DNA of 64,000 bases from Natronobiforma cellulositropha (GTDB lineage Archaea; Halobacteriota; Halobacteria; Halobacteriales; Natrialbaceae), in contig NZ_JANZXN010000022.1 of assembly GCF_025629245.1 (NCBI RefSeq), positions 10,664 to 74,663 on the forward strand, written 5' to 3'. Below are positions 21,866-35,306 of this stretch, in pieces. Below the pieces are notes generated by a model. That model saw nothing but the letters and a program-made list of their open reading frames with translations. It was not told where the DNA came from and did not search any database. The number at the start of each line of letters is the position of its first letter. Position 1 is the stretch's first letter. A program made the position numbers and the translations under genes.

Positions 21866-22504
21866 TCACCCGAAGTACTCCGCGATGTTGTCGTACACTT
21901 CGTCCATGTTTTCACCCTCCTTCGCCGATAAGGGAACGGTCTCGTGCTGGGGGAACGCCTCCGCGATGCGTTTGACACTCGACTCGTCGAGGTCGATCTT
22001 GTTCGCGAAGATGAGCACGGGCAGGTCACGAGATTCGATGATACCGATGAGCATCGTGTTCACCTGCGTGATCGGGTCTTCGGCGCTGTCGAGTACGTAG
22101 ATGACGCCGTCGACGTCCTCACGTAGCCAGTGCATCGCCTCGGCGACGCCTTCGGTCGCCTCACGAGAGCGACGGACAGCGTCGTCTTTGCTCATCTCGT
22201 CGGTGAACTCCTCGTAGTCGACTTTGGTCGTCACGCCGGGCGTGTCGACGATGTCGATCGTCACCGTCTTGCCGTTGCGTTCGATTTCGACGTTCTCTTT
22301 CCGGCGAGCGCGCCGTGTTTCGTGTGGAATGTGACTCTCCGTGCCGATGGCGTCACCGGTCCAGTCTCGAGCGATGCGGTTTGCGAGTGTCGTCTTTCCA
22401 GCGTTCGGCGGGCCGTAGATGCCGATGCGCTTCGGTTCCTGTTCCGAGAACAGGCGATCCGTTGCACGGGAGATGCTATCTTTGAGTTCTGTAAACAATC
22501 CCAT
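21866..22504 (-). CDS. oapA: Origin-associated GTPase OapA
   Basis: A 212-residue Era/Obg-like GTPase. G1 is YGPPNAGKTTLAN (near 28-40), G3 is DIVDTPGVTT (near 80), G4 is IFANKIDLDE (near 165) and G5 is PLSAKEGE (near 190). There is no KH or other RNA domain, so it is a bare G domain with a short amphipathic start (MGLFTELKDSISRATDRLF). It starts at 22504, at the edge of the origin region, and is read away from orc1, so the origin contains both promoters. It is first in the oapA-oapB-oapC operon. It is presumably a GTP-dependent switch for the DUF2073 partner. Confidence 0.9.
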   Translation of the reverse strand: MGLFTELKDSISRATDRLFSEQEPKRIGIYGPPNAGKTTLANRIARDWTGDAIGTESHIPHETRRARRKENVEIERNGKTVTIDIVDTPGVTTKVDYEEFTDEMSKDDAVRRSREATEGVAEAMHWLREDVDGVIYVLDSAEDPITQVNTMLIGIIESRDLPVLIFANKIDLDESSVKRIAEAFPQHETVPLSAKEGENMDEVYDNIAEYFG

Positions 22505-22820
22505 CCTTGGGGCCTCCGCACACCAGCGGGGGTGCGTCTGCGCGTAGTACTGCACCGGATTCACTTAAGCCTACGTCAGACGTATTAGAGTACCAACAAC
22601 AATGACCGTATCACCGTCACGAGTGACTCGGGATGGACACGTGATACGGGATGGACACCAGCAGGTGAGAGAAGGTGTCGGCCGTCTCGAGCAGCGTCCC
22701 GGGGAACGCTTCTCGACTTCGTCGACGAAACCGCCGACGTAATTCGATCGAGCGGGTCACACCTCCAACTGGCAGCGGTCGGGTCCTACGACTGGCAGCG
22801 GTCGACGGTCGGTCAGGTAG

Positions 22821-22847
22821 TTCCAGTCGAAACGGGGGGTGGCGGGG
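22821..22847 (+). other. Origin recognition box
   Basis: TTCCAGTCGAAACGGGGGGT followed by GGCGGGG: the half-site plus G-string of a haloarchaeal ORB. Confidence 0.75.
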
Positions 22848-22921
22848 TTACGGACGCAGTGTGAGTGACATACACAAGCTCGCTCGGGACAACCAGTTTA
22901 TCGTTGTAACCCCGATCGGAG

Positions 22922-22950
22922 ACCCCCACCCCTTCGTTTCCACTGGAAAA
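22922..22950 (-). other. Origin recognition box, left arm of the inverted pair
   Basis: The minus strand reads TTCCAGTGGAAACGAAGGGG then TGGGGG, the clearest ORB in the window. It points away from the AT-rich element. Confidence 0.88.
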
Positions 22951-23036
22951 GAGCGAAGAGGTGTGGCCCGAGAGCGGATTAACTGGACAACGAACTGTGA
23001 AATGAACCCGGAAAAGGGCGATGAGCGGACAGAGAG

Positions 23037-23215
23037 GACTCGAGAGAGGAGAATTCGACGAGATCAGCGTTCTAGTAATCTAGATCGCTGTGAGACGTGG
23101 TTCTAGTAGACTCTAGTAACTATTTCTCTCTCTTCTAGTAGAATCGATCTGTGTTTGATGCTACGGACCAATAACCCAACCATCTACATAAAGATTCCCA
23201 AACCAGAATCACTCG
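23037..23215. other. AT-rich duplex unwinding element with TTCTAGTA repeats
   Basis: This is the most AT-rich stretch between the inverted ORBs. TTCTAGTA occurs at about 23070, 23101 and 23133, and CTCTAGTA at 23111. Repeated CTAG in a GC-rich genome is unusual and fits an easily melted site. Confidence 0.72.
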
Positions 23216-23237
23216 CTGGGGGTCACCCTCGGAGATC

Positions 23238-23271
23238 GTTCCACCAGAAACGAAGGGGTGGGGGGTTGGGG
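23238..23271 (+). other. Origin recognition box, right arm of the inverted pair
   Basis: GTTCCACCAGAAACGAAGGG then GTGGGGGGTTGGGG. It shares AAACGAAGGGGTGGGG with the boxes at 22922 and 20058. Confidence 0.87.
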
Positions 23272-23603
23272 CAGCTCCCTCCCTCAAACCCCTCACTTAA
23301 TCAAACTCTCTCTTTGTACAGACTGTCACGAGGATCGGTTTCGATAGCTGACAGCCAACCTGGACGACCACGTACCGCTCGAGGTGAACCGACGGTCTCT
23401 CGGTCCACTCTCGTTTCGCTGAACACTCTCTTTCTCTCACACTCGTCGTCCCGGTAGGTTGCTCCGTCTCTTCACGTACACGCAAAACAAACTCTAGAAG
23501 CTCGCTAGAGGTGGGAGACGAGACGCCACACGAACCGAAGGCGGTGCCTACCTCGAGTCGGCCGTCACGAAGAACCGACCATCCCGCGAGATGAAAGGAA
23601 GAA

Positions 23604-23610
23604 TTTAATA
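23604..23610 (+). promoter_or_regulatory. Probable orc1 TATA box
   Basis: TTTAATA is about 150 bases before the orc1 ATG. It predicts a leader of roughly 125 bases that includes the ORB at 23724. Confidence 0.45.
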
Positions 23611-23723
23611 GCTAGGTCTTCCTCTGGTTCGTCTGCATCAACTGGACCCGAACGACGGATTCGTGTGTGGAATCTGCCCTCCTGAACCCTCATACGGCGT
23701 CACATCCACGACTTCGGGCCCGC

Positions 23724-23747
23724 AACTCCAGTCGAAATAGAGGGGTA
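23724..23747 (+). other. Origin recognition box in the orc1 leader
   Basis: AACTCCAGTCGAAATAGAGG then GGTAC ends 13 bases before the orc1 ATG, where bound Orc1 could repress its own gene. Confidence 0.65.
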
Positions 23748-23759
23748 CACGTACGACGA

Positions 23760-25454
23760 ATGTCAGACGATAATCCACAGATGGCCGGTTCGGGTCGAGG
23801 CGTCGACTTCGGATCCGGGGCTCGGTTCGGATCGGACGAGACGACCCTGGATCCGACTGACGACGAGTCGAACCAGGGGCTGTTCGACGACCTGCTCAGC
23901 GGCGAACCGATCTTCGAGAACAAGGAGGTCCTTCGCCCGTCGTATACGCCACACGAACTTCCCCACCGTAGCGACCAGATCAACAAGATGGCGACGATTC
24001 TCGTCGCAGCACTCAGGGGAGAGACGCCGTCTAACATCCTCATCTACGGAAAGACCGGTACCGGAAAGACCGCGAGTGCGAAGTTCGTCAGCAAGGAACT
24101 CGAGAGCACCTCGAAAAAGTACAGCGTTCCCTGCGAAGTCGAGTACATCAACTGTGAGGTGACGGACACCCAGTACCGCGTCCTCGCACAGCTCGCGAAC
24201 AAGTTCATCGAGGAGAACGAACGGCTCATCGACGAGCGACTCGATTCGCTCGACGCCCTCCTCGAGGAAGTCGACACCTACGGAGGCGATACCACACCCG
24301 ACGGAGACGTCGACGCGTCGCCTGCCGATGGTCGAACCGACGACAAACGATCTGTTCGGGTCGAAGGTAAAACCTCTTCCAAACCGAATCGTGACGCTTC
24401 GAATAGCGGATCTCCACCTGAAGTAGGGGGGTTCGAGAGTGGCGACGATCCGGGTTCGGAAACCGAACTCGAGGAGGCACCCCCTCACCCACTCACGGAG
24501 ACACCGTTCGATTCGCTCGACGAGGTCTCCGCTCGTCGCGAGCAACTCGAGGCAGACCGCGAGTCGTTCGAGGAGGTGCCGATGACGGGGTGGCCGACCG
24601 ACCGCGTCTACAGCGTCTTCTTCGAGGCGGTCGACTACTCCGAGCGGGTCGTCGTCATCATGCTCGACGAGATCGACAAACTCGTCGAGAAGTCGGGCGA
24701 CGACACGCTCTACAACCTCTCGCGGATGAACTCGGAACTGCAGAACTCGCGGGTGTCGATCATCGGGATCAGCAACGACCTGAAGTTCACCGACTTTCTC
24801 GACCCGCGCGTCAAATCGAGTCTCGGCGAGGAAGAGATCGTCTTCCCGCCGTACGACGCGAACCAGCTCCGGGACATCCTCCAGCACCGTTCCGAGGTCG
24901 CGTTCAAAGGTGACGCGCTCTCGCCGGACGTCATCCCGCTGTGTGCGGCCTTCGCCGCCCAGGAACACGGTGACGCTCGGCGCGCGCTCGACCTCCTGCG
25001 GACTGCGGGCGAACTCGCCGAACGCTCCCAGACGGAGACCATCGTCGAAGAACACGTCCGTCAGGCCCAGGACAAGATCGAACTCGACCGCGTCGTCGAG
25101 GTGGTCCGCACCCTGCCAACGCAGAGTAAACTCGTCCTCTTCGCGATCATCCTCCTCGAGAAAAACGGCGTTCACAGCATCAACACCGGCGAGGTGTTCA
25201 ACATCTACAAGCGCCTCTGTGAGGAGATCAACGCCGACATCCTGACCCAGCGGCGGGTGACGGATCTCATCAGCGAACTCGACATGCTCGGCATCGTCAA
25301 CGCCGTCGTCGTCTCGAAAGGGCGCTACGGCCGCACCAAAGAGATCAGCCTCTCGGTCCCGCTCGAGGACACCGAGGTCGTCTTACTCTCCGACTCGCGT
25401 CTCTCCGACATCGACGACATCCAGCCGTTCGTCCAGGCGCGCTTCGACAACTGA
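23760..25454 (+). CDS. orc1: Orc1/Cdc6 replication initiator
   Basis: A 564-residue AAA+ initiator that binds ORBs and loads MCM. Walker A is IYGKTGTGKTASAKF (near 100), Walker B is VVVIMLDEIDKL (near 305), sensor 1 is IIGISNDLKFTDF, sensor 2 region is 'GDARRALDLLRTAGELAE', and a winged-helix DNA-binding domain fills the C-terminus (about 450-560). Between AAA+ subelements, residues about 165-270 form a long acidic, low-complexity insertion. A piece of this (SPPEVGG) is encoded by an ORB-like DNA sequence at 24411. I chose the ATG at 23760 because the frame before it overlaps the origin box. The gene begins at the right end of the origin region. Confidence 0.96.
   Translation: MSDDNPQMAGSGRGVDFGSGARFGSDETTLDPTDDESNQGLFDDLLSGEPIFENKEVLRPSYTPHELPHRSDQINKMATILVAALRGETPSNILIYGKTGTGKTASAKFVSKELESTSKKYSVPCEVEYINCEVTDTQYRVLAQLANKFIEENERLIDERLDSLDALLEEVDTYGGDTTPDGDVDASPADGRTDDKRSVRVEGKTSSKPNRDASNSGSPPEVGGFESGDDPGSETELEEAPPHPLTETPFDSLDEVSARREQLEADRESFEEVPMTGWPTDRVYSVFFEAVDYSERVVVIMLDEIDKLVEKSGDDTLYNLSRMNSELQNSRVSIIGISNDLKFTDFLDPRVKSSLGEEEIVFPPYDANQLRDILQHRSEVAFKGDALSPDVIPLCAAFAAQEHGDARRALDLLRTAGELAERSQTETIVEEHVRQAQDKIELDRVVEVVRTLPTQSKLVLFAIILLEKNGVHSINTGEVFNIYKRLCEEINADILTQRRVTDLISELDMLGIVNAVVVSKGRYGRTKEISLSVPLEDTEVVLLSDSRLSDIDDIQPFVQARFDN
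24411..24433 (+). other. ORB-like site inside orc1
   Basis: TCTCCACCTGAAGTAGGGGG then GTT sits in the non-conserved linker of Orc1. It parallels TCTCCACCTGAAACAGGGGG at 27535 in polD1. Confidence 0.5.
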
Positions 25455-25790: not shown

Positions 25791-26996
25791 TCAGCGCCCG
25801 TAGCGTCTCCAGCCGGCGATTGCGACGGTCCCGACCCCGACACCCCCTGCTATGCCGACGGCGGTCGTGGCGTGTTCGGACGGTGGCAGTGGCTGGCCGA
25901 CGTAGTCGGGCGTCCCAGCGGTTGGCTCGCCGTCCGGTGTCGCCGTCACGATTCCCGGTCCGGCGGAGAAGTACCGGTCGAACGTGAGTCTGACGTGGCC
26001 GAGCCACGGGACACGAAACATTCCTTTACCGGTGATCCACTCGGGGGCGACGACGTCGGTGTTTACGGCTCCTGCTTGATCGTACACCGAGTTCGTGTTG
26101 GGATTGTCCCCCTTCGTGATGAAGCCGGCGTGATTCGCCGGACAGTGTCTGATCTGATCACACGTCCGTCCGTTCGTGTACTCCGGGTCGGCGTACTTCT
26201 CGACCCAGTCTTCACCCTCTTCGACCCAGAAGTGCGCTCGGTGGATGATCGGTGTCGCCCGGTCGTTGCCGTTGGGCATGAAGATGATCACGTCCCCGGG
26301 CTCGCCGAACTTCTCGTACTCGCTGTTTCCGGCGTCGGCGAGCGGGACGACTCCCGTTCCGTCGACCGAGTTGTCGCCAGTGAAGCGGTTCTCGTCGGCG
26401 ACGAAGATCAGGTCTCCCTTGTGCATATTCGGCTCCATGCTCCCGCTCTCGACGGCGACCAGCGGCGGCCAGACGCCGCTGATACCGAACAGGAGTAAGC
26501 CGATGACGGCGACGATAGCGACGCTGCTGAGGACGTCGCGAACCGCGACCACGGTGCCGTTGTCTGTTTTGAAGAACCAGCGGACGACGCCGTCGTCTTC
26601 GATCGTGACGCCGTTCGATGTCGCCGGTTTCGGTGGACTCGAGTCGCCACCCGAATTCGTCTCACCGGTTGCCGCCCCCTCCACCGCCGTTTCCGGCATC
26701 TCCGTAGATGCCGTCTCTGTGGGCGCTGGATCCGTCCCCTGACCACCCGCCGTCTCCGCCGGCCGACCGGTCGGCTGCTCGGCCGACTGTCGGGTATCGG
26801 GCTGGTTGGTGTCGACTCGCGAGCCGTCGACTGAGTCGTCGTCCGTCTCGGTGTGTGCGGGCGTCTCGCCCCGCTCGTCGTCGGGACTGTGCCCGCTGTC
26901 GTCTGTTCCACCCCCTGTGGGCTGCTCATCCGACGGCGGATCGCTGCCATCTCGAGGCGGATCCGTGGAGGGACCATCGGAACCGGGACCGGTCAT
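25791..26996 (-). CDS. sec11: Signal peptidase I, Sec11 type
   Basis: A 401-residue membrane protease that removes Sec signal peptides. The catalytic domain begins after a helix at about 170-195. The serine motif is VESGSMEPNMHKGD (Ser near 205) and the second catalytic region includes 'ATPIIHRAHFW', with His replacing the bacterial Lys as in Sec11/archaeal enzymes. A further box is 'ITKGDNPNTNSVYDQ'. A C-terminal helix lies near 375-395. Unusually, the first ~160 residues form a very acidic, Thr/Pro/Gly-rich disordered region. Two ATGs (27002, 26996) are possible starts. It is divergent from polD1 with only about 115 bases between, matching the orc1-sec11-polD1 order in Haloferax. Confidence 0.92.
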   Translation of the reverse strand: MTGPGSDGPSTDPPRDGSDPPSDEQPTGGGTDDSGHSPDDERGETPAHTETDDDSVDGSRVDTNQPDTRQSAEQPTGRPAETAGGQGTDPAPTETASTEMPETAVEGAATGETNSGGDSSPPKPATSNGVTIEDDGVVRWFFKTDNGTVVAVRDVLSSVAIVAVIGLLLFGISGVWPPLVAVESGSMEPNMHKGDLIFVADENRFTGDNSVDGTGVVPLADAGNSEYEKFGEPGDVIIFMPNGNDRATPIIHRAHFWVEEGEDWVEKYADPEYTNGRTCDQIRHCPANHAGFITKGDNPNTNSVYDQAGAVNTDVVAPEWITGKGMFRVPWLGHVRLTFDRYFSAGPGIVTATPDGEPTAGTPDYVGQPLPPSEHATTAVGIAGGVGVGTVAIAGWRRYGR

Positions 26997-27117
26997 TGTC
27001 ATCGCTTTGCGGGGGCGCACAATCAACCTTCTGTTCAGTGTCGCCGGGCGTTCACGGCCGCTCGAGACGGAGAACCCGGCTCCAGGGGTCGGATTCGCCA
27101 CCCTTTTCTCACCGCCC

Positions 27118-28794
27118 GTGAATGCCGAAGACGTGCCACTCGAGGGGGTTGCGCGGATCGTCAGCGAACTCACCAGCCACGGCTACAATGCCGAACGCGA
27201 GGCCGTAACGCTGATCGCTGCGAGTGAGGACCCGGAGGCGCTCTTAGCGCGCGTCGTCGAGGGAGTACCCGAGGACGCACTGGTCGTCCGAACCGACCTC
27301 GTGCGTGCGGTTCGCGAGGCCGGAACCGAGCCCACGAGTGACCCCTCCTCCGTGAGTGATCCGCCTCCCGGGACCGAGACGCCCCCCGAGACCGAGACGT
27401 CCCCCGAGACCGAGATGTCGGCGACGTCTCGAGCGACCGGTAAAAACGGGAACCGGTCGGCTCACGGGAGCGACGGCTCAGACCCCTCTCCTTCGACTGG
27501 ACCCACCACTCCCACCTCCTCTGGGGCAGGCGTTTCTCCACCTGAAACAGGGGGGTCTGGTGGGTTCGAACGTTCCGGTGACAGCTCCCAGCGTGCCGTC
27601 GAAATCGTCGGCGACATGACCGGCCAGAGTACGGGGACCGGCGAGTACCGTGACTTCGTGGCGGTGTTTCGCGACCGACTCGAGCGCCTCGGCTCGAAGC
27701 TCCGCGGGCGGGTCAACCACCGTCCGGCGACGGCCATCCAGAAGATGCCCGGCGGCGGTGAGGTCGGGATGGTCGGCCTGGTCAACGACATCCGGTCGAC
27801 GGCGAGCGGCCACTGGCTGATCGAACTCGAGGACGCGACCGGGACGTTTCCGTGGCTGGTGATGAAAGATCGCGAGTTCGCGGGCTTCGTCGACGAACTG
27901 CTCTGTGACGAGGTGCTGGCGATGGAGGGGACCCTCTCTGACGACGCCGGAATCGCGTTCGTCGACTCGATGTACTTCCCGGACGTGCCGCGGACGCACA
28001 CGCCGTCGACCGCCGACAGACACGTCCAGGCGGCGCTCATCAGCGACGTCCACGTCGGCAGCCAGGAGTTCATGGGCGACGCCTGGAACACGTTCACCGA
28101 CTGGCTCCACACCGAGGCGGCCGAGCACGTCGAGTACTTGCTGATCGCCGGCGATATGGTCGAGGGCGTCGGCGTCTACCCGAACCAGGACGAGGAACTC
28201 GACATCGTCGACATCTACGAGCAGTACGAGGCGTTCAGTGAGTACCTCAAAGGCGTCCCCGGTGACATCGAGATCGTGATGATCCCCGGCAACCACGACG
28301 CCGTCCGCCTCGCCGAGCCACAGCCGGGATTCGACGAGCACCTCCGCGGTCTCATGACCGCTCACGACGCGACCATCGTGAGCAATCCGTCGATGGTCAC
28401 GCTCGAGGGCGTCTCCGTCCTGATGTACCACGGCGTCTCTCTGGACGAGGTGATCGCCGAACTCCCCGCGGAGAAGGCGAGTTACGACGAGCCACACAAG
28501 GCGATGTACCACCTCCTGAAGAAGCGCCACGTCGCCCCACAGTTCGGCGGCCACACCCGCCTCGCACCCGAAGAGAAGGACTACCTCGTCATCGACGAGG
28601 TACCCGACATCTTCCACACCGGCCACGTCCACAAACTCGGCTTCGGCAAGTACCACAACGTGCTGGCGATCAACTCCGGCTGCTGGCAGGCCCAGACCGA
28701 CTTCCAGAAGTCCGTCAACATCGACCCCGACTCGGGCTACGCGCCCATCGTCGACCTCGACACGCTCGACGTCACCGTCCAGAAGTTCAGCTAA
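27118..28794 (+). CDS. polD1: DNA polymerase D small subunit (DP1)
   Basis: A 558-residue subunit of the archaeal replicative polymerase D. The C-terminal half is an active-type calcineurin-like 3'-5' exonuclease domain: LISDVHVGSQEF, LIAGDMVEGVG, MIPGNHDAVR, LMYHGVSLDE and FHTGHVHKLG supply the metal ligands. Before it comes an OB fold (about 190-290). The first ~60 residues are a helical domain, joined by a Pro/Thr/Ser-rich linker (about 65-150) that overlaps an ORB-like DNA motif. The start is GTG (27118), judged from where the conserved helix (NAEDVPLEGVARIVSEL) begins; no ATG is suitably placed. Confidence 0.94.
   Translation: MNAEDVPLEGVARIVSELTSHGYNAEREAVTLIAASEDPEALLARVVEGVPEDALVVRTDLVRAVREAGTEPTSDPSSVSDPPPGTETPPETETSPETEMSATSRATGKNGNRSAHGSDGSDPSPSTGPTTPTSSGAGVSPPETGGSGGFERSGDSSQRAVEIVGDMTGQSTGTGEYRDFVAVFRDRLERLGSKLRGRVNHRPATAIQKMPGGGEVGMVGLVNDIRSTASGHWLIELEDATGTFPWLVMKDREFAGFVDELLCDEVLAMEGTLSDDAGIAFVDSMYFPDVPRTHTPSTADRHVQAALISDVHVGSQEFMGDAWNTFTDWLHTEAAEHVEYLLIAGDMVEGVGVYPNQDEELDIVDIYEQYEAFSEYLKGVPGDIEIVMIPGNHDAVRLAEPQPGFDEHLRGLMTAHDATIVSNPSMVTLEGVSVLMYHGVSLDEVIAELPAEKASYDEPHKAMYHLLKKRHVAPQFGGHTRLAPEEKDYLVIDEVPDIFHTGHVHKLGFGKYHNVLAINSGCWQAQTDFQKSVNIDPDSGYAPIVDLDTLDVTVQKFS
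27533..27561 (+). other. ORB-like site inside polD1
   Basis: TCTCCACCTGAAACAGGGGG then GTCTGG encodes SPPETGG in the DP1 linker. It is the closest relative of the site inside orc1. Confidence 0.55.
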
Positions 28795-30566: not shown

Positions 30567-33500
30567 ATGGCGCAAGCCGGAAGTACGGAACTCGTCGACG
30601 CGTTCGAGCAGTTCTTCAGGAACTACTACGACAACGACATCAAACAGCTTGCCCAGCGCTACCCGAACGAGCAGCGCTCGCTCTCGATCGAGTGGCAGGA
30701 CCTCTACCGTTTCGACCCCGATCTCGCCGACGACTTCATCAACCAGCCCGAACAGCTGACGCGCTACGCCGAGGAGGCGCTCCGTCTCTACGACCTCCCC
30801 ATCGACGTCAGCCTCGGCCAGGCACACGTCCGCATTCGCGGGCTTCCGGACGCCGAGTCACCCGAGATTCGTGACATTCGCGCGCGCTACATGAACCGTC
30901 TCGTGCAGGTTCGGGGCATCATCCGGAAGGCGACCGACGTCCGCCCGAAGATCGAAGAAGCCGCCTTCGAGTGTCAGCTCTGCGGGACGCTCACTCGCGT
31001 TCCGCAGTCGAACAGCGACTTCCAGGAACCCCACGAGTGTCAGGGCTGTGAGCGCCAGGGTCCCTTCCGGGTCAACTTCGACCAGTCCGAGTTCGTCGAC
31101 GCCCAGAAACTGCGCATCCAGGAGAGCCCCGAGGGCTTACGCGGCGGGGAGACTCCCCAGGCGCTCGACGTCCACATCGAAGACGACATCACCGGCCAGG
31201 TCACCCCCGGCGACCACGTCTCCGCCTGCGGCGTCCTCCGCCTCGAGCAACAGGGCAGTCAGCAGGAGAAATCGCCCATCTTCGACTTCTACATGGAGGG
31301 CATCTCCGTCGAGATCGACGAAGAGCAGTTCGAGGACATGAACATCACCGAGGAGGATCTCGAGGAGATTATCCGCCTCTCGGCCGAAGACGACATCTAC
31401 GAGCAGATGGTCGCCTCCATCGCCCCCGCCATCTTCGGCTACGAGGAGGAGAAACTCGCGATGATCCTCCAGCTGTTCTCCGGAGTGACCAAGGAGCTCC
31501 CCGACGGCTCGCGGATCCGCGGCGACTTACACATGCTGCTCATCGGTGACCCGGGTACCGGGAAATGTGTGAAAGGGGACACGAAGGTGGCACTTGCGGA
31601 CGGCCGAGCGGTCCCCATTCGGGAACTCGTCGAATCGAACCTCACTGACCCGAAGCCGATCGACGATGGCTGGTGGGACTCGGTCGACCTCGACGTCCCG
31701 TCGCTTCGACAGGATGGCTCGATTTCAGCCCACCGTGCGACTAAAGTCTGGAAGCGAGAAGCGCCTCCGAACATGTATCGGATTCGAACGTCGAGTGGTC
31801 GCGAACTCGAGGTGACGCCTTCACACCCGTTGTTCGTTCCGACTGAGACCGGGTATCGGGCGGTTCGCGCGGATGGATTGACCGAGGGTGATCGAATCGC
31901 TGCCACGTCGGACTCGAGCGAGGGTACGATCTCGAGCGACGGCATCGCCGCTGACGGCGGTACGACTGTCCCTGTCGTCGATGTCGACCGAATCGACTCG
32001 ATTCACACTATCCAGCCCGACTACGACTGGGTGTACGATCTCGAAGTAGCGCGTACTCACAACTACGTCTCGAACGGCATCGTTTCCCACAACTCCCAGA
32101 TGCTCGGCTACATCCAGAACATCGCTCCCCGGTCGGTCTACACGTCGGGGAAGGGGTCTTCCTCGGCGGGTCTCTGTGTCACCGGCGAGACGCTCGTCCA
32201 CACTGAGAACGGACTCGAGCCGATTCGCGACGTGGTGACTGAGCGCCTCCCAGAGCCGGTTTCCGAGGAAACCGCACTCGAGGACGCCGTCGGACTCTAC
32301 ACGTTCGACCGCGACACGGGGGCGCTCGAGGTGCGCTCGACTTCGCACGTGTGGCGGATGCCACCGAAGCCGTGTCGACGGATCGAGACCTCGTGCGGGA
32401 AAGCACTCGAAGCGTCCCGAAACACTCCAGTGTTGACCTGCAGTGAGGGTGGTCTCGAGTGGAAGCCGATTTCAGAAATCGAACCCGGAGACTACGTGGG
32501 CGTTCCGAGATACACCGACACCGTTCGATCCTCTCCGCCGGTTGCTGACTATCTCGAGTTTACCAACGAGAAGCTCAGACTCTCGGACGACTCGATCGTT
32601 TCCATACGTCGACGCCTCTGTGAGGAGTACGGAACACTGCGGGCGGCTGCACGCGAACTCGGACTGCCGGAGGATTTCGTGTACGATACGCTCCGGAATC
32701 GGTACGTCCCGCTCGAGCGCCTCCGGGTCGTTCTCGATGCAGTCGGTCTCGACCTCGCTGATCTGACGGTCGAACGAGCGATGCTCCGTCACGGGGAGAG
32801 CGTTCGCATCCCGGACGCGTTCGACGAGGATCTCTGCTATCTCATCGGTCTCGTCTTTGGTGACGGCGACCTCATGGTCTCGCGTCGGGGCAAGAACCGA
32901 GGCTGCATCCGGATCTCGAACGGTGACGAGACGATACTCGAGCGGGCGATCGAGATCATCGAGTCGACGTTCGACAAACGGCCGGAGATCGAGTATCAGG
33001 ACGAGCGAGTTCCCAGTATTCGGCTCCACAGTGCGACCGTCGCACGCTTCTTCGCGAACCTCGGGATGAAGACGCCGAAGGAGGACCTGGAACTCGATGC
33101 CAACCTGACGACTGCAGAACATGCAGACGCGTTCCTCCGAGGGCTGATGGATGCGGATGGGTCGGTTTCTGCACGGACGGACGGCGGTTCGAGTATTCAC
33201 TTCTCGACCATCAGCGAGCCGCTCGCTCGGCAGGTCCAGCTGATGTTGGAGACGTATGGTATCCGCGCCCGGGTCCGTGAGCGCGACCGACGCGGAACCT
33301 CGGTACTCGAGAACGGCTACGAGATCACGTCGAAACACGTCCAGTACGACCTCGAGTGCTACGGCCGCGACATCGAGCAGTTTGCGCGAGCGGTCGGCTT
33401 CGACTGTCCGAGGAAACGGGCCGCCCTAGACGGAATCGTCGGTGATGCTGTCCGTCGGCAGGAACGAGTTCCGATCGGCGGTGCGCTCGTGGCAGCCGAG

Positions 33501-35306
33501 GGTTCTGCGGGCGAGTACTACATGAACGTCCACCACGGTGATAACCCCGGTCGGGAGCGGGCGCGGCGGATGCTCACCGACCTCGAGTTGGGTGGTGCTG
33601 AACCACTCGTCAGGGAAGCCGTCGAGGCGGACCTCTGCTGGGATCGGGTCGTCGACACCGCCGATACCGGTGAGAAAGAAGTGTTCGATCTCACAGTTCC
33701 CCAGACGCACAACTTCGTCGCGAACGGCGTCGTCACCCACAACACTGCCGCTGCGGTTCGCGACGACTTCGGCGACGGCCAGCAGTGGACGCTCGAGGCT
33801 GGCGCACTCGTCTTGGCAGACCAGGGTATCGCTGCGGTCGACGAACTCGATAAGATGCGGTGTGTGACGGGTGAGACGCTGGTACGGACCGGTGATCGAC
33901 TCGTTCCGATCCGAGAACTCGCTCACGAATCGATCGCCGATGGAACGACCGAAGAACTCGAGAACGGGCGAACGATTCGGGGATGCCCGTTCACTGTTCG
34001 ATCGATGGACGAAACCGGCTCGCTCGTCGACCGTCACGTCCTCGCAATTCACGAGTACGACCCACCGACTGAGTTGGTCGAAGTGACGATAGAAACCGGA
34101 GACCAGCTCAGGACCACGCTCGATCACCCGTTTTTCATCGATACCGATGCAGGGGTTACTGAGCGGGCCGCCGGTGAACTCGAGGTCGGTGACAAAACGC
34201 TCATCCCTCACGTCACAGACCACGTCGCGACCGATGGCGGTGCAGCCGTAGCTTCCGATACACCCGCTGCATCGGGCCGGGATGTTCGTCCTTGTGAAAT
34301 AACTCACATCGAACGGCTCGAGAACGAGGGTGAGCGAGTCTACGACCTCACCGTCGATGGAACACACAATTTCATCGCGAACGGAATGGTCGTTCACAAC
34401 TCCGAAGACCGCTCGGCGATGCACGAGGCGCTCGAGCAACAGAAGATTTCGATCTCGAAGGCGGGGATCAACGCCACGCTCCGCTCGCGGTGTTCGCTGC
34501 TCGGGGCGGCCAACCCGAAGTACGGCCGGTTCGACCGCTACGAGCCGATCAGCGAGCAGATCGACCTCGAGCCGGCGCTCATCTCGCGGTTCGACCTGAT
34601 CTTTACGGTGACCGACCAGCCGGATCTCGAGAAGGATCGCGACCTCGCCGAGCACATTTTGAACACCAACTACGCGGGCGAGTTGACCACCCAGCGCCGG
34701 GAGATGAACGCGCTGGACGTGAGCATGGAGGAGATCGACGAGATGACCGCGAAGGTCGACCCGGAGATCGACGCGGAGATGCTCAGGAAGTACATCGCCC
34801 ACGCGAAACAGAAGTGCCACCCGCGGATGACAGAGGGGGCTCGCGAGGCGATCCGGGACTTCTACGTCGACCTCCGCTCGAAGGGCGTCGACGAGGACGC
34901 GCCGGTGCCGGTCACCGCACGCAAACTCGAGGGACTGGTCCGGCTCTCGGAGGCGAGCGCGCGGGTGCGCCTCTCGGATACGGTCGAACTCGACGACGCA
35001 GAGCGGGTGATCGAGATCGTTCGCTCGTGTATGCAGGACATCGGCGTCGACCCCGAGACGGGTGAGTTCGACGCCGATATCGTCGAGGCGGGGGCCTCGA
35101 AGTCCCAGCGCGACCGGATCAAGAACATCAAGAGCCTCATCAGCGAGATCGAAGACGAGTACGACGAGGGGGCGCCGATCGACGTCGTCCTCGAGCGGGC
35201 GAGCGACATCGGGATGGATGGCTCGAAAGCCGAACACGAGATCGAGAAACTCAAGCAGAAAGGCGAGGTGTACGAGCCGAGTACGGATCACCTGCGGACG
35301 ACCTGA
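30567..35306 (+). CDS. mcm: Replicative helicase MCM precursor with three inteins
   Basis: A 1579-residue precursor; removing three inteins (334-509, 537-1059, 1099-1278) leaves a 700-residue MCM of normal length. The N-terminal domain has the zinc site CQLCGTLTR ... CQGCERQG (near 133-160). The extein AAA+ core reads GDPGTGK|SQMLGYIQ (Walker A), SSSAGL|TAAAVRDD (pre-sensor insert), then VDELDKMR|SEDRSAMHEALEQQ (Walker B). Sensor 1 'LLGAANPKYGRFD' and the arginine finger region 'LISRFDLIF' follow, and a winged helix closes the protein. Every intein interrupts a catalytic element, so no helicase activity is possible before splicing. Transcription appears leaderless, with an ORB upstream. Confidence 0.97.
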   Translation: MAQAGSTELVDAFEQFFRNYYDNDIKQLAQRYPNEQRSLSIEWQDLYRFDPDLADDFINQPEQLTRYAEEALRLYDLPIDVSLGQAHVRIRGLPDAESPEIRDIRARYMNRLVQVRGIIRKATDVRPKIEEAAFECQLCGTLTRVPQSNSDFQEPHECQGCERQGPFRVNFDQSEFVDAQKLRIQESPEGLRGGETPQALDVHIEDDITGQVTPGDHVSACGVLRLEQQGSQQEKSPIFDFYMEGISVEIDEEQFEDMNITEEDLEEIIRLSAEDDIYEQMVASIAPAIFGYEEEKLAMILQLFSGVTKELPDGSRIRGDLHMLLIGDPGTGKCVKGDTKVALADGRAVPIRELVESNLTDPKPIDDGWWDSVDLDVPSLRQDGSISAHRATKVWKREAPPNMYRIRTSSGRELEVTPSHPLFVPTETGYRAVRADGLTEGDRIAATSDSSEGTISSDGIAADGGTTVPVVDVDRIDSIHTIQPDYDWVYDLEVARTHNYVSNGIVSHNSQMLGYIQNIAPRSVYTSGKGSSSAGLCVTGETLVHTENGLEPIRDVVTERLPEPVSEETALEDAVGLYTFDRDTGALEVRSTSHVWRMPPKPCRRIETSCGKALEASRNTPVLTCSEGGLEWKPISEIEPGDYVGVPRYTDTVRSSPPVADYLEFTNEKLRLSDDSIVSIRRRLCEEYGTLRAAARELGLPEDFVYDTLRNRYVPLERLRVVLDAVGLDLADLTVERAMLRHGESVRIPDAFDEDLCYLIGLVFGDGDLMVSRRGKNRGCIRISNGDETILERAIEIIESTFDKRPEIEYQDERVPSIRLHSATVARFFANLGMKTPKEDLELDANLTTAEHADAFLRGLMDADGSVSARTDGGSSIHFSTISEPLARQVQLMLETYGIRARVRERDRRGTSVLENGYEITSKHVQYDLECYGRDIEQFARAVGFDCPRKRAALDGIVGDAVRRQERVPIGGALVAAEGSAGEYYMNVHHGDNPGRERARRMLTDLELGGAEPLVREAVEADLCWDRVVDTADTGEKEVFDLTVPQTHNFVANGVVTHNTAAAVRDDFGDGQQWTLEAGALVLADQGIAAVDELDKMRCVTGETLVRTGDRLVPIRELAHESIADGTTEELENGRTIRGCPFTVRSMDETGSLVDRHVLAIHEYDPPTELVEVTIETGDQLRTTLDHPFFIDTDAGVTERAAGELEVGDKTLIPHVTDHVATDGGAAVASDTPAASGRDVRPCEITHIERLENEGERVYDLTVDGTHNFIANGMVVHNSEDRSAMHEALEQQKISISKAGINATLRSRCSLLGAANPKYGRFDRYEPISEQIDLEPALISRFDLIFTVTDQPDLEKDRDLAEHILNTNYAGELTTQRREMNALDVSMEEIDEMTAKVDPEIDAEMLRKYIAHAKQKCHPRMTEGAREAIRDFYVDLRSKGVDEDAPVPVTARKLEGLVRLSEASARVRLSDTVELDDAERVIEIVRSCMQDIGVDPETGEFDADIVEAGASKSQRDRIKNIKSLISEIEDEYDEGAPIDVVLERASDIGMDGSKAEHEIEKLKQKGEVYEPSTDHLRTT
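31566..32093 (+). other. Intein 1 of MCM, 176-residue mini-intein
   Basis: It starts CVKGDTKVALADG and ends NGIVSHN, followed by Ser. Block B is VTPSHPLFV with the expected His. It lies inside Walker A between GK and S. There is no LAGLIDADG motif, so it is a splicing-only element. Confidence 0.93.
32175..33743 (+). other. Intein 2 of MCM, 523 residues with LAGLIDADG endonuclease
   Basis: It starts CVTGETLVHTENG and ends NGVVTHN, followed by Thr. The endonuclease motifs are LCYLIGLVFGDGD and FLRGLMDADGSV. A helix-turn-helix-like stretch (GTLRAAARELGLPEDFVYD) precedes them. Block B reads ASRNTPVLT, with Thr where His is usual. Confidence 0.93.
33861..34400 (+). other. Intein 3 of MCM, 180-residue mini-intein
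   Basis: It starts CVTGETLVRTGDR and ends NGMVVHN, followed by Ser. Block B is TTLDHPFFI with His. It directly follows the Walker B segment DELDKMR. No endonuclease is present. Confidence 0.93.

Follow-up and report, generated by a model that had tools for sequence, protein, structure and literature searches.

Main chromosomal origins (oriC1) of haloarchaea, as portrayed for Haloferax volcanii, Haloarcula hispanica, and Halobacterium NRC-1 in two papers (PMC3528665, PMC3936714), adjoin an orc1/cdc6 gene, feature inverted ORBs with a G-string around an AT-rich core, and keep a conserved set of neighbor genes; a G-rich repeat is further described for H. hispanica (PMC3936714). The same traits recur in the region studied here, which lies in a 64,000-nucleotide stretch of Natronobiforma cellulositropha DNA (the window). 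Unlike the window, which holds an array of CTAG sites, both papers lack the term CTAG in their texts. Such sites have been considered elsewhere: Blow et al. (2016, Fig. 6D) correlate CTAG clusters upstream of haloarchaeal orc1/cdc6 genes with an orphan m4C methylase and propose that these clusters have a replication-regulating role (PMC4752239), which has since been restated (PMC10609329). The window resembles these cases in that a CTAG cluster lies upstream of orc1 and that a gene for a candidate CTAG m4C methylase, with a specificity assigned by homology, accompanies it. However, the data of Blow et al., as far as their main account goes, are limited to motif density over 50 kb (with the motif printed as CATG in the body and as CTAG in the legend), whereas the array in the window adds fixed spacing, helical phase, orientation, a YAA flank, and a defined place between the ORBs (PMC4752239). 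The array is a refined variant of the published CTAG correlation, with newly visible architecture.

Two further systems invite comparison. The oriC of Escherichia coli likewise has clustered target sites of a solitary methylase within it, with a possible read-out of hemimethylation (GATC, Dam, and SeqA, as summarized in PMC6471742 and PMC5867850). The chemistry and the replication machinery differ, with GATC (m6A) in E. coli and CTAG (m4C) on an Orc1/MCM origin in the window. We know of no SeqA-like reader for a CTAG origin array, nor did the present analysis turn one up. In Sulfolobus, a short conserved motif, ucm, is located in the unwinding region, which is framed by two inverted ORBs, and a second element of the window, TRCGGWTAYKGTT, is similarly placed, although its letters differ, by eye, from the published ucm oligonucleotide; the same paper places the ubp gene in Desulfurococcales and Sulfolobales (PMC12141716). 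In the titles and abstract openings surveyed, and in passages from the closest papers, we found neither a fixed phase, orientation, and extended motif for CTAG sites nor TRCGGWTAYKGTT.

Little is known about how archaea prevent or schedule renewed firing of their origins, and two papers regard what the CTAG methylase, retained by most haloarchaea, does as an open question (PMC6471742, PMC10609329). With five sites of defined spacing, orientation, and flank, the array goes beyond a correlation of densities: it can be tested base by base, including the role of the methylase, in genera with established genetics (Natrinema, Haloferax, and Haloarcula). TRCGGWTAYKGTT in turn is relevant to whether other archaeal lineages have analogous origin factors, as asked in the UBP paper (PMC12141716).

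Anatomy and neighborhood of the predicted origin

The first-pass annotation had read the interval as the main chromosomal origin and had described inverted ORBs facing away from an AT-rich core, additional boxes on either side, and the neighbors oapA, orc1, sec11, and polD1. The corresponding features are as follows (strand given where one applies).

21866 to 22504, minus strand: small GTPase gene (oapA-like), conserved left neighbor (profile small_GTP TIGR00231)
22505 to 23759: predicted oriC1 intergenic region, GTPase gene to orc1 (1,255 bp, with 8 of the window's 14 CTAG)
22821 to 22841, plus strand: outer left ORB-like box (4 mismatches; poorly conserved)
22928 to 22948, minus strand: left core ORB (exact match to the ORB string; G-string to about 22922)
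23100 to 23149: the 50 bp of lowest stability within the intergenic region, candidate unwinding element
23239 to 23259, plus strand: right core ORB (exact match to the ORB string; G-string to 23265)
23726 to 23746, plus strand: ORB-like box (4 mismatches, CTCCAGTCGAAATAGAGGGGT), ending 13 bases short of the orc1 start codon (ATG, 23760)
23760 to 25454, plus strand: orc1 initiator gene (NF001625, 650 bits; cutoff, 501)
25791 to 27173, minus strand: signal-peptidase (Sec11-like) gene, conserved oriC1 neighbor (TIGR02228, 48.7 bits; cutoff, 51.85)
26806 to 28794, plus strand: DNA polymerase D (PolD) small subunit gene (NF003116, 955.7 bits; start codon uncertain)

For comparison, relatives of the locus were collected by using the GTPase as the scan query, which gave 80 named loci, 73 of which carry a correctly oriented orc1 beside the GTPase gene; together with the window, these form a set of 74. 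The seven loci left out either lack an orc1 match (L009, L038, L040, L042, L048, and L053) or have it on the other strand (L021). The set comprises 46 loci of a Natrialbaceae group, window included, as assigned by record names and similarity, and 28 others.

Both core ORBs match the string used for the search, TTCCASNNGAAACGAAGGGGT, and their G-strings are directed outward, away from the core, as first described. The inverted pair occurs in all 74 syntenic loci, at a separation of 179 to 425 bp. The two additional boxes were found as well, but they fared differently in relatives: a plus-strand ORB lies at most 110 bp from the orc1 start in 71 of the 74 loci, whereas an outer left plus-strand box like that at 22821 exists in only 7. 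With respect to the neighbors, the interval adjoins an orc1/cdc6 gene of the universally conserved type, and the profiles recognize the PolD small subunit in addition to orc1. The Sec11-like gene scores just under its cutoff, and the presumed oapA is identified by profile only as a small GTPase; the name oapA follows the first-pass annotation. Judged from anatomy, synteny, and conservation, the interval is very likely the main chromosomal origin, oriC1, an assignment that its anatomy and conservation make near certain. Matches to RNA families were absent from the window and from the five loci with CTAG clusters in the same genome.

Upstream of orc1, a TTTAATA box (23604 to 23610) is followed by a CATCAACTGGAC leader (the whole stretch covering 23604 to 23651), about 124 bp before the ATG. 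Leaders of the CATCAACTGG type precede orc1 in 68 of the 74 loci, and the box and leader probably represent the promoter and start of orc1. Further downstream, the MCM helicase gene (30567 to 35306, plus strand; 1,579 amino acids) contains three N-terminal and three C-terminal intein splicing regions.

The CTAG array and a second conserved core element

CTAG is rare in the window, with 14 occurrences compared to a shuffle mean of 103 (standard deviation, 9), and five of the eight in the intergenic interval lie between the core ORBs. Four of these belong to the YTCTAGTA repeats that had been reported to fall within about 75 bases; they start at 23070, 23101, 23111, and 23133 and span 71 bp. The CTAG positions of the interval, together with one that is lost in the window, are listed below without strand.

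23072 to 23075: array site 1, within TTCTAGTAA (31 bp before site 2; in 34 of 42 anchored loci)
23080 to 23083: extra CTAG, present in the window alone among anchored loci
23103 to 23106: array site 2, in TTCTAGTAG, the anchor
23113 to 23116: array site 3, in CTCTAGTAA (+10 from site 2)
23135 to 23138: array site 4, in TTCTAGTAG (+32 here; +31 or +32 in relatives)
23155 to 23158: consensus position of site 5 (+51 or +52), TTGA here and thus lost; CTAG in 35 of 42 anchored loci
23494 to 23497: CTAG outside the ORB-flanked core
23505 to 23508: CTAG outside the ORB-flanked core
23612 to 23615: CTAG between the TTTAATA box and the CATCAACTGGAC leader of orc1

The count in the window's core is by itself only moderate evidence: five CTAG compare to 1.56 expected from dinucleotide shuffles, and at least five were reached in 4 of 200 shuffles. 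The strong evidence for the array is its conservation in relatives. Across the Natrialbaceae group, we counted 291 CTAG in 13,624 bp of core, while the 611,631 bp outside have 223; the 28 other loci have 67 in 5,809 bp of core and 103 in 342,933 bp outside. Dinucleotide shuffling of the cores predicts 93.9 and 23.6 CTAG, respectively, which places CTAG in the Natrialbaceae-group cores at 3.06 times its expectation, the top rank among the 16 palindromic tetramers. At the level of single loci, the observed count was matched by at most 1 of 200 shuffles in 28 of the 46 Natrialbaceae-group loci and in 7 of the 28 others. Five of these 28 loci (L052, L054, L059, L070, and L081) have a core without any CTAG. 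That the array is under selection is strongly supported by these sequence comparisons.

The first-pass annotation had proposed alignment across relatives as a check, and both the ORB pair and the repeats came through it: position, spacing, and orientation of the array are kept in 42 of the 46 Natrialbaceae-group loci. Anchoring required two CTAG 10 bp apart and a third at +30 to +32, with sites 1 and 5 not used, and failed in L033, L046, L047, and L056. The five sites are separated by 31, 10, 21 to 22, and 20 bp. Between sites 1 and 2, the alignment is near random (columns mostly 0.1 to 0.5 bits), in contrast to 1.0 to 1.8 bits at site 1 and in the TAA that flanks it. A period of 10.4 bp fits the five conserved positions with an R of 0.99, a phase that random placements reach with P values of 0.0006 (periods of 10 to 11 bp) and 0.0055 (any period from 6 to 16 bp), although the loci are related by descent, so that the phasing is in effect that of one architecture. 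Lineage-specific extra CTAG sites (28 unique offsets) showed no phasing (R = 0.02) and were rejected as support for it; a further site at +99 to +101, found in 22 locus entries, does not fit the phase either.

Conservation extends past the tetramer. The conserved unit reads tCTAGYAA, is directional, exceeds what a CTAG methylase requires, and is unrelated to the ORB, which agrees with the earlier suggestion that the repeat might be a binding site separate from the ORB. In the Natrialbaceae group, YAA follows 132 of the 291 core CTAG in the forward direction and 34 in reverse, compared to 1 and 2 of the 223 outside. With one locus per genus, it is found at 45 (forward) and 9 (reverse) of 85 core CTAG versus 1 and 0 of 99 outside. 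At array sites 1 and 3, YAA is conserved as strongly as CTAG itself. Given that the motif is longer than CTAG, a reader with stricter sequence demands than those of the methylase seems to be called for. Among the 28 other loci, YAA accompanies only 2 (forward) and 6 (reverse) of 67 core CTAG, and the extended unit is thus a feature of the window's family and a few others. Consistent with this, the strict pattern CTAG-N6-CTAGYAA-N13-15-CTAGYAA occurs in 72 of 391 genomes of the class, as a single copy in 70 of them; by our count, 68 of these genomes belong to the family of the window, which accounts for 101 rows, and 4 are elsewhere. The reversed pattern, used as a control, had no match in the 391 genomes. 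The genome of the window itself escapes the strict pattern because its site 4 reads CTAGTAG. In two genomes of genus g66 (L087 and L088), CTAG lies both outside and inside the inverted ORB pair, unlike the Natrialbaceae array.

The core holds a second conserved element that the first-pass annotation had missed:

23162 to 23174, plus strand: core element TRCGGWTAYKGTT, degenerate here (TACGGACCAATAA), located by motif match across the 74 loci

TRCGGWTAYKGTT mostly lies 78 to 81 bp before the right ORB. It is present with at most three mismatches in 71 of the 74 loci and with at most one in 59, compared to 2 of 74 reversed cores, and loci that lack the CTAG array (e.g., L054, L070, and L081) still carry it or a degenerate version of it. 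By analogy of placement, it is possible that TRCGGWTAYKGTT is a haloarchaeal counterpart of the Sulfolobus ucm.

The candidate CTAG methylase and its distribution

The genome contains one strong N6_N4 methylase match, a protein of 353 amino acids (L082) and, by homology, a candidate CTAG-type m4C methylase. It shares 49% identity over 92% of its length with the methylase of pFZ1, whose gene adjoins one for an MjaI-family nuclease and which we take to be the plasmid-borne MthZI methylase gene of the literature. MthZI is CTAG recognizing, with a plasmid-borne methylase gene, according to a title cited by Fullmer et al. Among the open reading frames listed in the 3.7-kb locus of L082, no neighboring nuclease was recognized.

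Relatives of the methylase (E ≤ 0.001) were found in both parts of the named set, namely, in 44 of the 46 genomes of a first batch and in 28 of the other 31. Those of the first batch are full length, and the two misses are draft metagenome-assembled genomes of 2.0 to 2.3 Mb. The 28 further carriers divide into 25 with full-length proteins (56 to 76% identity), 2 with split ones (L058 and L062), and 1 with a paralogue of 40% identity (L068). Across the class, 332 of 391 genomes have a match at E ≤ 1e−60, and the misses listed (20 of the 59 methylase-lacking genomes) all belong to one family, f4. From this family, we chose 30 genomes, 15 with and 15 without the methylase, and found the core in only 16: six methylase-lacking cores hold 1 CTAG in 1,125 bp, and ten methylase-bearing cores hold 16 in 1,876 bp. 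Exceptions run both ways, as L054, L070, and L081 combine a methylase with a core devoid of CTAG, and L068 has three core CTAG with nothing but the 40% paralogue. The coupling between methylase and array is therefore a trend rather than a rule, and it is confounded by kinship. Within genus g30 of this family's comparison, a test of joint loss is uninformative because 13 of 16 genomes lack a core as defined by the ORB string and the three remaining cores, with or without methylase, lack CTAG.

Published data put CTAG modification at 97.0 and 98.7% m4C in two Natrinema strains (PMC6696651) and at 74.5% of sites detected as modified in Haloterrigena salifodinae (PMC8103870). For H. volcanii, Ouellette et al. 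(2018) describe a methylase deletion free of a growth defect and dense CTAG at only one origin (PMC5867850).

Readings of the array and other CTAG clusters in the genome

With methylation set aside, we consider it probable that this oriC1 carries a selected protein-binding array. Once methylation control by way of a hypothetical reader is included, so that binding would be methylation sensitive, the balance appears even. Weighing against this fuller reading are the methylase-bearing genomes with a core devoid of CTAG, the unphased extra sites, the normal growth of the H. volcanii deletion strain, and, in the window, the loss of site 5 and the moderate core count. By extension from its family, Orc1 bound to the two inverted ORBs would load MCM on the AT-rich core, where the duplex would first open. 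In this unwinding region, a putative protein may occupy neighboring tCTAGYAA units along a single helical face. N4-methylation of the CTAG cytosines could alter its binding, such that a hemimethylated new origin would transiently differ from a mature one. In analogy to GATC, Dam, and SeqA at the E. coli oriC, the methylation state might then tune when Orc1 and MCM reopen the core. In its complete form, this reading proposes an epigenetic array of helix-phased, one-way tCTAGYAA units that would be N4-methylated by a conserved solitary methylase, read by a hypothetical archaeal protein, and serve to mark new origins; it would be Dam/SeqA-like in logic and independently arisen on an Orc1/MCM origin, with TRCGGWTAYKGTT as a separate, ucm-like element for helicase activation. 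We put forward this full combination tentatively, as a possibility.

A rival proposal makes the array the site of a helix-phased origin protein (nucleoid associated, an initiator helper, or Orc1 itself, for which it would be a second, weaker site), with methylation of CTAG as incidental, in the manner of ucm and UBP. In its favor are a directional unit that exceeds CTAG in length, with YAA as strong as the tetramer at sites 1 and 3, and the 10.4-bp phase; a dedicated binding protein for the Sulfolobus DUE motif is on record (PMC12141716). This proposal is possible but somewhat doubtful, given that it leaves unexplained why the core of the unit is CTAG, a word strongly avoided in these genomes and the presumed target of a methylase that 332 of 391 genomes of the class retain, and that a second origin-like region with another type of ORB also features CTAG at 10-bp spacing, with YAA after none of its five sites. 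A pure unwinding or bending element, which would act through phased flexible TpA steps and need no dedicated reader, draws on the location of the least stable 50 bp, which lie within the core ORB pair in 61 of the 74 loci and coincide with sites 2 to 4 in the window, TpA being the weakest step of the nearest-neighbor table used. We regard it as unlikely: other TpA words are depleted in the cores (TTAA, 10 versus 59.7 expected; TATA, 41 versus 56.9) while CTAG reaches 3.06 times its expectation, and melting needs neither a fixed orientation nor a YAA flank.

The interval might also be mainly the promoter and leader region of orc1 and the GTPase gene, with the array as a transcription-factor operator. 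The CATCAACTGG-type leader ahead of orc1 in 68 of 74 loci fits this idea, as does the suggestion, from a study on Haloferax lucertense, that CTAG near start sites affects regulation (PMC11001535). However, the array lies 620 to 690 bp from the orc1 ATG and 565 to 635 bp from the GTPase start, far from the orc1 leader at about −124 and between the origin ORBs, which renders an operator very unlikely. Least probable of all is that CTAG clusters merely mark AT-rich noncoding DNA with relaxed avoidance and play no role in replication. While avoidance is indeed strong across the window and the genome does have origin-free CTAG clusters, we reject relaxed avoidance in AT-rich DNA because core CTAG exceed the expectation from their own dinucleotide composition threefold (291 versus 94); moreover, the exact spacing is kept across genera, and the non-origin cluster tested was not conserved.

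A whole-genome pattern search located the other CTAG clusters on contigs C9, C13, C57, and C58 and in a repeat shared by C18, C55, and C57. Only the cluster on C58 (L134) precedes an orc gene with its own repeated ORB-like boxes. There, positions 1 to 1560 form a second orc-adjacent, origin-like region with boxes of the ATACAGCGGCACTCCGGGGTGTG type and CTAG at 590, 600, 610, 620, and 635 (10, 10, 10, and 15 bp apart); YAA does not follow any of these sites. As these boxes are unrelated to the window's ORB, the CTAG feature recurs at an origin-like region with different boxes, in agreement with what Blow et al. report for multiple orc1/cdc6 genes (PMC4752239). CTAGTAA matches 16 times in the 3.76-Mb genome, twice within the core of the window; the matches inspected elsewhere (L178, L182, L186, L188, and L190) lacked origin anatomy by eye.

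Directly after the PolD large subunit gene, seven CTAG are packed into 71 bp (L127, 1501 to 1572; C57, 177386 to 177457). This cluster is not conserved, as each of 23 relatives detected by tblastn had at most a single CTAG in the corresponding 300 bp. Finally, a repeated CTAGTAAG...TTACTAG sequence, which perhaps represents the end of a mobile element, is found at contig ends in C18 and C55 and a further time in C57 (L123, L125, and L188).
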